Shown here piece after piece: positions 58,890 to 61,428 of a DNA stretch of 64,000 nt (position 1 is its first letter; each line of letters starts with the position of its first letter). A program made the translations under genes and the position numbers. This DNA comes from Lanius collurio (taxonomy: Eukaryota > Chordata > Aves > Passeriformes > Laniidae). The notes below the pieces were generated by a model. That model was not told the DNA's origin. It did no database searches and worked only from the letters and a program-made list of their open reading frames with translations. The stretch spans positions 11,863,534-11,927,533 of the forward strand of contig JACBWW010000017.1 of NCBI GenBank assembly GCA_020086605.1, written 5' to 3'.

Positions 58890-58896
58890 TCCCCAT
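58890..58896. repeat. Target-site duplication, left copy
   Basis: TCCCCAT directly abuts the left LTR, which begins TGTTGTAG. The identical heptamer follows the right LTR at 61,422. The true duplication may be 6 or 7 bp. Confidence 0.8.
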
Positions 58897-58988
58897 TGTT
58901 GTAGTGAGGGAATCCTTACAGCAAGTATAAGACAGCAATGAACTTGGAAGGAAAGATGAAGCGATATTCTTTAGATGTTCAGGGATGA

Positions 58989-58994
58989 TTTATT
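58989..58994 (-). terminator. AATAAA polyadenylation signal in the 3' LTR
   Basis: The minus strand reads GGAATAAATCATC. The same signal is kept in the 5' LTR at 61,222-61,227. It lies downstream of the Y-box in transcription order, the expected place for the end of R. In short LTRs the same AT-rich block may also act as a weak TATA element. Confidence 0.65.
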
Positions 58995-59077
58995 CCTTCA
59001 GCTGCCTGACTGGAGTTCCCAGGCAGACCCCAGTCATGGGACCCTGCTCTCTTCCCTGGCCCGGGCACCCAAACCAC

Positions 59078-59085
59078 CCAATCAG
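59078..59085 (-). promoter_or_regulatory. Y-box (inverted CCAAT) in the 3' LTR
   Basis: The minus strand reads CTGATTGG, the core of the Y-box (CCAAT on the opposite strand). It sits about 110 bp into the LTR and upstream of AATAAA, a promoter-like position. The matching site in the 5' LTR (61,312-61,319) reads CTGGTTGG, one transition away. NF-Y is the classical binder of CCAAT, while Y-box proteins are named for this element, so either could act here. Function is inferred. Confidence 0.6.
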
Positions 59086-59192
59086 GAACAGGTATGGGGC
59101 ACACATGACATAGGGACAGGGATAGAGAAAGACCCGTACTCTGCAGCGTCCCTCCCCCCAGGATTTCAGGGGAGAGGCACCTCCACAATTCA

Positions 59193-59204
59193 CCCTTTCT
59201 TTTT
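59193..59204 (-). other. Polypurine tract
   Basis: The minus strand reads AAAAAGAAAGGG and directly abuts the 3' LTR. This is the usual primer site for plus-strand DNA synthesis, and it independently confirms the minus orientation of the element. Confidence 0.85.
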
Positions 59205-59457
59205 AAATAAAGAACATTGGAAACAATTGGATAAACAAAACAATTTCAAAGGAAAGGAAGGCACTATCTTGAGTCCCCAAATGTCCAAACAGATTTCCTC
59301 TGGAACATCAGAAGGGAGACAGGACTTAGCATACCTCAGATGGAAACTGAGTCAGGAGAGGGTTTTTTTCTTTTTGTGCCTGTTGGAATCTTAGAAAATT
59401 ACAGTTAATTTCTTCCTTCCCTCCTTTTCATCCCTCCCATCGGCATTGCAAAGGGGT

Positions 59458-59916
59458 TCATGGCAAATGGAAAAGCCTGGTTTTGTGACGGGAACGAGAA
59501 AGGGAAATTTGGGTTGGGCATATATGGGGGATAAAGGGGCATGGGATAAAGGGGAAGGTGGGATAGGAGAAAGGATAGGGATTATGGGGATATTGTCTAG
59601 CATATCTACTGCCTTTGAGAGGGACACCCCCAGGCCCTGTAACACATGCTGCCTGTGGGCCCTTTCTTCCCTGCACAACTTTAAATTCTACTCTGTCTCC
59701 TTCTTCTAAGCTTGGAACATCACTTTTGGGGTTATTTTTCACAATAGTAGATTTATGGACAAAAATACTTTCTCCAGTTTCGATTCTCAATAAGAAACCA
59801 TAATTTTTCTTTACATTATACCATTTTACAGTTCCAAAAACCCTAGATGCCATAACGTTTTCATTTTTCCAAGTTCCTTTGTTCTTGCTTTCACTTTCGG
59901 TTTTGCTTGCTCTCAC
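59458..59916 (-). CDS. Y-box (YBX-type) cold-shock domain protein captured by the LTR element
   Basis: An uninterrupted frame of 152 codons. The frame's first start-type codon is a GTG; the first ATG is codon 22 (59,851-59,853) in good context (G at -3 and +4), so the likely protein is 131 residues. By the 152-codon numbering the cold-shock domain spans about 24-106. It has TVKWYN (29-34), an RNP1-like NYGFLL (38-43), an RNP2-like SIFVHKS (50-56), KNNP (60-63), VEFKVV (76-81) and VTGPGGVP (92-99). This order and the TGPGG block are characteristic of vertebrate YBX1/2/3 rather than bacterial Csp or LIN28. The binding residues W32, F41, F52 and H54 are all present. Host YBX genes have introns within this domain, but this copy has none, so it came through a spliced RNA. 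The long basic/acidic C-terminal region of YBX1 is missing and replaced by a Pro/Tyr/Phe-rich tail of about 45 residues. Expected role: single-stranded DNA/RNA binding. An old pseudogene would be expected to have acquired stops, and none is seen. Confidence 0.88.
   Translation of the reverse strand: MRASKTESESKNKGTWKNENVMASRVFGTVKWYNVKKNYGFLLRIETGESIFVHKSTIVKNNPKSDVPSLEEGDRVEFKVVQGRKGPQAACVTGPGGVPLKGSRYARQYPHNPYPFSYPTFPFIPCPFIPHICPTQISLSRSRHKTRLFHLP
59526..59562 (+). other. G-quadruplex-forming repeat opposite the tail of the cold-shock ORF
   Basis: G runs of 5, 4, 3, 4 and 3 are spaced by loops of 3-5 bases, built from imperfect GGGATAAAGGGG units. It satisfies the simple rule of four runs of at least three G with loops of at most seven. 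It lies on the plus strand, the template for the ORF, and encodes its Pro/Tyr/Phe-rich tail on the other strand. It explains the tail as repeat expansion rather than a copy of the host C terminus. Confidence 0.6.
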
Positions 59917-60705
59917 GCTGGAGCTGCCGCTGTAGGGGTCTGAGCACTCCTGCTGCGTGGTTCTGGCTTCCCGGGGCTGCCTTTGGGGCTGCGCGGGCCA
60001 GGCTGCGCTGCTTCACTCTGCCAGCTCCTCTGCTGCCTCTGGCCACAGTCTGTGTGCTGCCACCTCTGCCAGGCTCCCACATGGCCACTGCTGCACCGCT
60101 GCTTGGCGCTGTGCTCGCTTCTCCTCTGGAGCTCCGTGCAGCTGCTCCACGCTTTCTGGGCTTTCGTGCAGCTGCACGGCCGCGCCCTGTAAGGTGTTCG
60201 CGTGTGCACGGCTTTGTACTGCCAGCGCTGCCACAGCTACTGCTGCTGTCGGCTGTGTCACTGCTGGCTGCTAGTGCGGTTGCCTTCTCGCTGCCCCCAC
60301 GCCGCTCTGGCTCTGCTCGGCGTGGCTCACTGTGGTCGCCATAGCAACTGCCACACTCGCCACCTCCTTTCTTGGTGCGAGGCTCAGACTGTCACTCGCC
60401 ACACAATGCGGGGCAGCCATCGCCAGGATGCACCTCTGCCACCACCGCCCTCGCCACTGCCTCAGGGCGAACACCACTGGGCCCGCGCCGCCGCACTGCT
60501 CCTGGCTCCACTCCTAGCCACTGCTCTCACTGCCGCCCCTGCTCCCGCCATGCCTGGCTCCGCTGGCTCTCCCATGCACGGGAGCTCCCTCGCCACCACC
60601 CACAGTGCACTCGGCGCCCATGGCCAGAGCCGCGTGGTCTCCGGGGTGGTAAAGGAGCCCGCTGCAAAGCGCGCGCTGCTCGACCACGTGTTCACTGCTG
60701 ATACA
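59917..60705 (-). other. GC-rich insert between Gag remnant and cold-shock ORF
   Basis: About 0.8 kb of strongly GC-rich, CTG/CAG-containing sequence, sharply unlike the AT-rich Gag part (60,706-61,019) and the cold-shock ORF. It is open in several frames on both strands, which reflects composition, and none has a recognisable domain. Possible origins are the GC-rich 5' end of a captured host transcript, unrelated captured DNA, or a structured RNA leader or internal ribosome entry region. A minus-strand acceptor-like CCCCTACAG ends at 59,930, just upstream of the cold-shock frame. Confidence 0.6.
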
Positions 60706-61019
60706 GCAGCAGGACACAGCCGATATTGCTCAACAGTCTCTGAAATCAGGTAATATTCATGGAAATAGTCTTGCATCGGCACATTTTTTGATTCAGAAAT
60801 TAACTGCGTCCAAACATTCTCCCAAAAGTCCTTGGTAAGAATCAAATCCCAAGAAATGTGGAGGAAGTTTTTAAACAGCCATGCCAAAAAGTGCCTTAGT
60901 TCTTTCCGAGCTTGAATTGAGCTAAAATCTACATATTGCTGTTCAAGAACCTTTTTAAGTTTAAGGTAAATGTCTCTTTGTGGTTTGGACAGCCATGAGT
61001 CCTTCCATGAGTCCTCCAT
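60462..61019 (-). pseudogene. Truncated retroviral Gag (matrix-like) ORF running into GC-rich sequence
   Basis: An ATG-initiated frame of 185 codons lying about 110 bp after the 5' LTR, where gag is expected. The first 105 or so residues are helical and Trp/Leu/Lys-rich, with a betaretrovirus-type matrix pattern (SKPQRDIYLKLKKVL near the start, then FLAWLF and SWDLILTKDFW). It then continues for about 80 residues into Ala/Arg/Pro-rich translation of the GC-rich insert. Capsid, nucleocapsid zinc knuckles and everything downstream are missing, so it cannot form particles. The retained 5' gag may matter as RNA-packaging sequence rather than protein. Assignment is by pattern, not alignment. Confidence 0.65.
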
Positions 61020-61070
61020 CGTTCAGAGATGGGACAGCAAAATGAAAGCAAGAAGAGATATCCAGAGATT

Positions 61071-61076
61071 ACTCAC
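61071..61076 (-). promoter_or_regulatory. Candidate splice donor in the element leader
   Basis: The minus strand reads TTTC|GTGAGTAA, a strong donor, about 52 bp upstream of the gag ATG. Together with the acceptor-like site at 59,930 it could join the leader to the cold-shock ORF and skip gag, as retroviruses do for env. This is inference from motifs. Confidence 0.4.
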
Positions 61077-61109
61077 GAAACACTGAATTATCTTCTCCAG
61101 GGGTTGTTT

Positions 61110-61126
61110 GCCCGCATTCTCCACCA
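61110..61126 (-). other. Primer-binding site fitting tRNA-Ala
   Basis: The minus strand reads TGGTGGAGAATGCGGGC, beginning two bases after the 5' LTR end. Its complement (...CGCATTCTCCACCA) matches from memory the 3' end of a vertebrate tRNA-Ala(AGC) isodecoder including the added CCA. Position and sequence together make this the minus-strand primer site. Confidence 0.72.
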
Positions 61127-61128
61127 TT

Positions 61129-61421
61129 TGTTGTAGTGAGGGATTCCTTACAACAAGTATAAGACAGCGATGAACTTGGAAGGAAAGATGAAGCGATATT
61201 TCTTTAGATGTTCAGAGATGATTTATTCCTCCAGCTGCATGGCTGGAGTTCCCAGGCAGACCCCAATCATGGGACCCTGCTCTCTTCCCCGGCCTGGGCA
61301 CCCAAAACCACCCAACCAGGAACAGGTATGGGGCATACATGACACAGGGACCGGGACAGGGACAGACCCGTACCCTGCAGGGTCTCTCCCCCCGGGATTT
61401 CAGGGGAGAGGCACATTCACA
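61129..61421 (-). repeat. 5' LTR of the element
   Basis: About 293 bp, starting TGTGAATGTG and ending CTACAACA on the minus strand. It should contain the promoter of the element. The CCAAT of the 3' LTR is changed here to CCAAC (61,312-61,316), and AATAAA is kept at 61,222-61,227. Confidence 0.9.
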
Positions 61422-61428
61422 TCCCCAT
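61422..61428. repeat. Target-site duplication, right copy
   Basis: TCCCCAT, identical to 58,890-58,896. This proves that the two LTRs and the interior were inserted as one unit. Confidence 0.8.

Follow-up and report, generated by a model that had tools for sequence, protein, structure and literature searches.

Mouse mammary tumour virus (MMTV), a betaretrovirus, assembles with the cellular Y-box protein YB-1, and knockdown of YB-1 is reported to lower particle production (PMC4486188). Host coding sequence has also entered endogenous retroviruses (ERVs) themselves: crocodilian ERVs are described as having captured KIT-ligand or nectin3 host mRNA, in several copies and with an open reading frame (ORF) reported to be under purifying selection (PMC4299795). 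In crows, the ERVK subfamily corCorLTRK1b is given a long terminal repeat (LTR) of 296 bp and a full length of 2.25 kb, and a 2.25-kb insertion of it upstream of NDP has been linked to plumage (PMC7341801). Here we analyze a 64,000-nucleotide stretch of the Lanius collurio genome (assembly GCA_020086605.1, contig JACBWW010000017.1, positions 11,863,534 to 11,927,533; hereafter the window), which contains a 2.5-kb LTR element at 58897-61421 on the minus strand, in which two LTRs flank a Y-box cold-shock domain (CSD) of the same orientation. A preliminary description had presented this element as the carrier of an intact, captured Y-box gene. We regard it as virtually certain that there is a high-copy family of such elements, encoding a selected protein in which the CSD is fused to an N-terminal domain (N-domain). 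No description of an endogenous retrovirus with a Y-box domain was found among the matches listed from the open-licence literature.

The two LTRs of the window element are 91.5% identical (E 4e-116; Kimura two-parameter distance, K2P, 0.084), far beyond chance, and a flanking repeat, a primer-binding-site-like sequence and a purine tract occupy the expected places; the element itself is present as first described. The YBX-type cold-shock sequence, lying in sense with the LTRs, was likewise borne out: it matches the Pfam family PF00313 at E 3.8e-20, and the closest solved structures are the domains of YBX2 and YB-1 (E about 1e-28).

We searched the source genome of the window (1.097 Gb), distinguishing first-look candidates from scored places, of which only the scored places are certain. 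The LTR query returned 3143 candidates (best 40 scored) and the CSD protein query 2142 (best 150 scored, every one at E < 1e-56), while queries with the first and second types of N-terminal domain returned 1258 and 1059, respectively (best 150 scored in each case). The contig pairs C40/C42, C45/C46, C346/C347 and C369/C370 give near-identical matches, and haplotype duplicates may therefore inflate the counts of places. The complete order of 5' LTR, N-domain (type 1 or 2), CSD and 3' LTR was found in 26 of 30 loci chosen by their CSD (L009-L038, where L009 is the window element), and the remaining four lacked one or two of the four parts within the examined stretch. Among 16 further CSD copies (L039-L056), from which repeats of earlier elements were excluded and which were partly picked for long frames, all four parts were in order in 14; one of the other two ends at the edge of its stretch. 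Two LTR-centred 10-kb loci (L057 and L058), probed with LTR, N-domain and CSD, showed only a lone LTR.

For a sample blind to the CSD, roughly one place in five was drawn from each of the two N-domain lists; 40 of the 60 places drawn were analysed (30 of type 1 and 10 of type 2), two of these elements (L086 and L096) also belonging to the CSD-chosen set. CSD sequence was present in 37 of the 40 (27/30 for type 1, 10/10 for type 2). The CSD core was at least 90% complete in 30 elements (21 of type 1, nine of type 2), and of these near-complete cores 16 have neither stop nor indel, nine have a stop and eight have an indel. The preliminary description had proposed capture as a trait of a family, and copies linking these LTRs to the CSD bear this out; the window CSD is a family trait and does not stem from a pseudogene insertion into a single element. 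One copy (L041, 2180-4894) was itself inserted into the CSD of another family member, splitting the outer CSD, and is flanked by the duplication GAAGGG.

In stop-free copies, the N-domain, an Arg/Gly/Ala-rich linker, the CSD and an aromatic tail form one frame of about 505 amino acids (aa). The capture thus stands, but the cargo is the C-terminal domain of a fusion protein and not the free-standing gene first supposed. Stop-free frames of 499-508 aa occur at 13 of the 150 scored N-domain places, and all 13 recur as CSD places of equal frame length (two in the first CSD list, 11 in a later one); the other 137 N-domain frames fall short of this length or are interrupted by a stop, including a single longer frame that contains one. 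The linker is basic and looks disordered; in five proteins it abounds in Arg, Gly, Ala and Pro, and its net charge amounts to +6 to +13 per 100 residues. YBX proteins typically continue in a C-terminal region of basic/acidic repeats; by inspection, the CSD of the element is followed instead by the short aromatic tail. N-domain types 1 and 2 share 31-37% identity and can be aligned over their length, and a third type, in locus L100, is 50% identical to type 2. In a Pfam scan of two whole stop-free proteins, the CSD alone scored above the cut-off, with no capsid domain and no CCHC zinc knuckles. The N-domain can be called matrix-like by position only, and a Vezatin match (0.0082, in two of 11 rows) was taken as chance. 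The C-termini of proteins P0002, P0005, P0006, P0008 and P0009 are rich in Phe, Tyr and Pro and include Asn-Pro-Phe motifs. Since Asn-Pro-Phe is a ligand of EH domains, the tail could serve as a trafficking signal.

Selection on the protein was assessed from replacement and silent changes among copies, with variants treated as independent and indel-bearing rows removed from the CSD tests. For the N-domain-sampled set, the 27 retained rows of the CSD core, among them partial ones and ones with stops, gave replacement:silent counts of 89:26 for singletons and 15:21 for variants in at least three copies (p = 0.00014). The corresponding counts were 96:29 and 22:28 in the CSD-chosen set (p = 6.3e-05), and 117:36 and 44:37 over all 63 CSD rows (p = 0.00065). 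This contrast persists when CpG sites are masked, with 70:17 and 12:13 in the N-domain-sampled set (p = 0.0038), p = 0.0021 in the CSD-chosen set and p = 0.022 over all rows. The N-terminal domain (25 rows) gave 87:19 for singletons and 13:17 for shared variants, with a CpG-masked p of 0.00012. Neutrality would predict a singleton replacement:silent ratio of about 2.5, which the observed 3.3-3.4 reaches or exceeds; together with the silent skew of shared variants, this indicates that individual copies decay about neutrally, whereas the elements that gave rise to them were under selection for the protein. The protein was kept by purifying selection during the spread of the family.

In the source genome, the CSD of host YBX1 lies on separate exons, and the element CSD has none of those introns, which argues that capture went via spliced RNA. 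Over 66 codons in five copies, the element CSD differs from the host YBX1 exons by pN of 0.25-0.29 and pS of 0.65-0.76, a silent divergence that approaches saturation. The two LTRs of an element, compared in 33 distinct elements that each offered more than 220 sites, are far less diverged, with a median K2P of 0.081 (range 0.029-0.165). The CSD therefore split from YBX long before the insertions and yet stayed a CSD. Its identity to YBX1/YBX2 is 52-56% in the window copy and in proteins P0002-P0005, and 64-71% in L100 and P0008. Either YBX1 or YBX2 may have been the donor: by sequence identity P0008 is slightly nearer to YBX2, and L100 has no preference. A slower avian rate, about 2e-9 per year, would give the window insertion an age of some 20 million years. 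The crow substitution rate, given as 0.0158 per site per million years in PMC7341801, would place it at about 2.7 million years, neither figure being claimed as a date.

The architecture extends to crows. A search of a UniRef-containing collection with the first 110 residues found, among 16 candidates, three proteins within the E limit of 10; each belongs to Corvus moneduloides and has a CSD. A second search from a crow sequence returned the same three and one more protein of that species (26 candidates). These four proteins (P0006-P0009) share the N-domain and CSD architecture, and are known from protein sequence and not from their LTR context. Source-genome and crow proteins are 70-76% identical. 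The CSD of P0008 shares 71% identity with YBX2, 68% with YB-1 and 57% with the window CSD, and a P0008-like CSD also occurs in the source genome (best identity 76%). L100, whose own LTR pair is 88.8% identical, carries an N-domain (with one stop), a linker, a CSD and a similar aromatic tail; its CSD is 64% and 65% identical to YBX proteins and 53% to the window CSD. As L100 and P0008 keep the same layout, the architecture is older than the divergence of the CSDs. An earlier protein search with the CSD alone, under a length limit that excluded proteins of about 500 aa, had P0001 as its sole match, a 171-aa CSD protein on a 1568-bp contig that aligns with 63% of the window CSD at 50% identity. 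Among viral contigs, 56 stretches matched the search pattern and none was confirmed as a relative by tblastn.

The window copy itself (Table 1) is a broken, decayed remnant of the family. Its N-terminal ORF and CSD ORF do not share a frame, nor is the aromatic tail in frame. Of the "intact, intronless" ORF in the preliminary description, the second adjective was therefore apt and the first was not. Across 47 distinct copies, the position of the start codon of the 131-aa window ORF reads Ile in 25, Met in two (the window and L031) and is unreadable in 20; this ATG is no family feature. The motif GTGAGTAA is also found 5' of the ORF in the leaders of L042, L048 and L051, and hence with both N-domain types, as a putative splice donor. 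In L051, it is followed by a pyrimidine-rich stretch with a final CAG directly before the ATG. No tRNA was found in a tRNA scan of the 64-kb window, and an Rfam match to SNORD75 outside the element (17.8 bits, where the gathering score is 50) was taken as chance.

Table 1. Layout of the Y-box element in the window (positions in the 64,000-nucleotide stretch).
Feature	Position	Strand	Remark
Left target duplication, tccccat	58890-58896	no strand	read from sequence
3' LTR, 291 bp	58897-59187	minus	91.5% to other LTR
Polypurine-tract-like sequence adjoining 3' LTR	59188-59206	minus	read from sequence
Y-box-type CSD	59458-59853	minus	last ~30 codons (the family's aromatic tail) out of frame in window copy
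GC-rich linker	59854-60719	minus	Arg/Gly/Ala/Pro-rich in stop-free copies; frame broken in window copy
N-terminal domain, ~100 aa, in Gag-matrix position	60720-61019	minus	opens 185-aa ORF 61019-60462
Leader with splice-donor-like GTGAGTAA at 61076-61069	61020-61109	minus	read from sequence; splice donor putative
Primer-binding-site-like TGGTGGAGAATGCGGGC, 2 nt past 5' LTR	61110-61126	minus	read from sequence; primer tRNA putative
5' LTR, 293 bp	61129-61421	minus	pairs with 3' LTR
Right target duplication, tccccat	61422-61428	no strand	read from sequence

Features of the LTRs and flanks point to the class of the family. An AATAAA polyadenylation signal is present in 84 of 89 family LTR copies. 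Exact 6-bp duplications with TG...CA ends were found in 14 of 24 elements, and a control that paired the flanks of different elements gave a mean of 0.10 and a maximum of two exact 6-bp duplications. Class II integration produces 6-bp target duplications as a rule, and these duplications and ends fit it. The window element is not among the 14: its target duplication, claimed in the preliminary description, is indeed present on both sides, at 7 bp against the 6-bp family standard. The elements, about 2.3-2.6 kb in length, hold the N-domain, linker and CSD only, and pol (reverse transcriptase, integrase) was not seen between the LTRs. The 17-nt window sequence TGGTGGAGAATGCGGGC was found in two of 99 loci, both representing the window element, although many of the 99 end before the site. 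The commonest primer-binding-site-like reading across copies is TGGTGGAGAAATGCTGG (nine of 31 listed sites), and the site varies between copies. A tRNA-Ala(AGC) primer, a putative match in the window copy that was unseen in the other copies examined, is not claimed.

The reading that we favour, and hold to be on balance probable as a whole, is that of a non-autonomous ERVK-like (class II) family with a captured Y-box CSD in a Gag-position protein that serves RNA packaging. The CSD would derive from an ancient capture of spliced host YBX mRNA, and purifying selection maintained it as the family multiplied. The fusion protein would be a pared-down, Gag-like factor whose captured CSD assumes the RNA-binding role of nucleocapsid and binds the element's own transcript. 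The element RNA could then be carried into the particles or ribonucleoproteins (RNPs) of a helper ERV, which would supply reverse transcriptase and integrase. The Gag position, the RNA-binding domain at the end of the protein, selection at both ends and the MMTV precedent together suggest that the CSD serves the assembly, or RNP, of its own RNA; taken alone, we judge this packaging or RNP role to be evenly balanced. More tentatively, a Gag lineage may have swapped its zinc-knuckle nucleocapsid for a Y-box CSD, giving a self-packaging class II parasite with several songbird sublineages that is young in crows and counts the NDP insertion (corCorLTRK1b) among its members. The identity of corCorLTRK1b with the Y-box family is a prediction, the two being compared by length only.

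Several points weigh against the packaging reading. Retroviral matrix relatives of the N-domain were sought with two alignments in Pfam and PDB sequences, and none was credible. No helper with pol and a matching LTR was found, in a comparison by eye, among the matches listed (146 integrase places and the 40 best L042-type LTRs). The open frame of the linker counts for little, because the region is GC-rich. The selective contrast in the N-domain drops to p = 0.078 in 14 indel-free rows with CpG masked, and doubletons show no silent skew in the N-domain-sampled set (18:7) or over all rows (43:7); we read the doubletons as mostly recent or recurrent changes. As a separate observation, the integrase places include several sets of stop-free frames that agree in length (932, 957 and 1026 aa), which suggests other recently active ERVs in the source genome, or assembly duplicates.

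Alternatively, the fusion protein could act on host germ-cell RNA regulation by coating, stabilizing or masking mRNA, with mobilization by a helper being a separate matter, and element transcripts would thereby evade decay, translation control or small-RNA silencing. The CSD retains Y-box features and is under selection, and that of P0008 is slightly nearer to YBX2, which is germ-line-specific, than to YB-1. However, so slight a preference does not settle the matter and is missing from L100; the CSD also has a co-selected N-domain in Gag position as its fusion partner, and lacks the long YBX C-terminal region. We consider an action on germ-cell RNA unlikely.

It is more doubtful still that the protein regulates transcription from its own LTR through the Y-box octamer CTGATTGG, an idea close to the remark in the preliminary description on promoters with CCAAT/Y-box sites, and one that has little support. 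The octamer is present in 55 of the 89 LTR copies, but its position ranks only 103 of 284 LTR 8-mer positions in conservation (0.62, against a mean of 0.51), and as 103 of the 284 are conserved equally or better it was rejected as a selected LTR site. Inverted CCAAT boxes are, moreover, frequent promoter elements whose usual binding partner is NF-Y, and LTR regulation would leave the N-terminal domain without a role. That a processed YBX pseudogene landed in one element and was amplified as a passenger without function is barely credible and was rejected: neutral decay after insertion and the doubletons would fit it, but it is contradicted by the silent skew of variants in at least three copies, and the recovery of the CSD in the CSD-blind sample, the ordered anatomy, the intron-split host YBX1, a silent divergence near saturation in a protein still alignable and open in many copies, and the architecture retained in L100 and the crow proteins all stand against it.

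Among known elements, the window type of the family comes near the songbird ERVK subfamily corCorLTRK1b in size, with LTRs of 291-293 bp in the window copy against 296 bp, and a length of about 2.3-2.6 kb against the 2.25 kb given for the crow subfamily (PMC7341801). By arithmetic, the 440-aa ORF of crow protein P0006, two 296-bp LTRs, and a leader and 3' stretch of L042 length would come to about 2.2 kb. The LTRs of the L042-type subfamily, at 244-247 bp, are shorter and in this respect unlike those described for corCorLTRK1b. The family could supply coding content for short songbird ERVK insertions that are known by their length and LTR, one of which is tied to crow plumage (PMC7341801). The crocodilian ERVs are described as having added KIT-ligand without loss of ERV domains, or replaced env by nectin3 (PMC4299795), whereas here an RNA-binding domain is fused into a Gag-position protein, and no pol or env was detected. 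With vertebrate YBX1 and YBX2 the element protein has the Y-box CSD in common, but it is intronless, lacks the YBX C-terminal repeats, and has its CSD fused to an unrelated N-domain and a new aromatic tail. The selected fusion suggests that these elements copy themselves with the help of a stolen cellular RNA-binding part, and the family offers a natural test of whether a retroviral nucleocapsid can be replaced by a cold-shock domain. MMTV, a class II retrovirus, uses host YB-1 with Gag and viral RNA (PMC4486188), and the present element encodes a Y-box domain of its own. Where retroviruses such as MMTV borrow Y-box proteins, the mobile element described here appears to own one, fused in Gag position and kept by selection.

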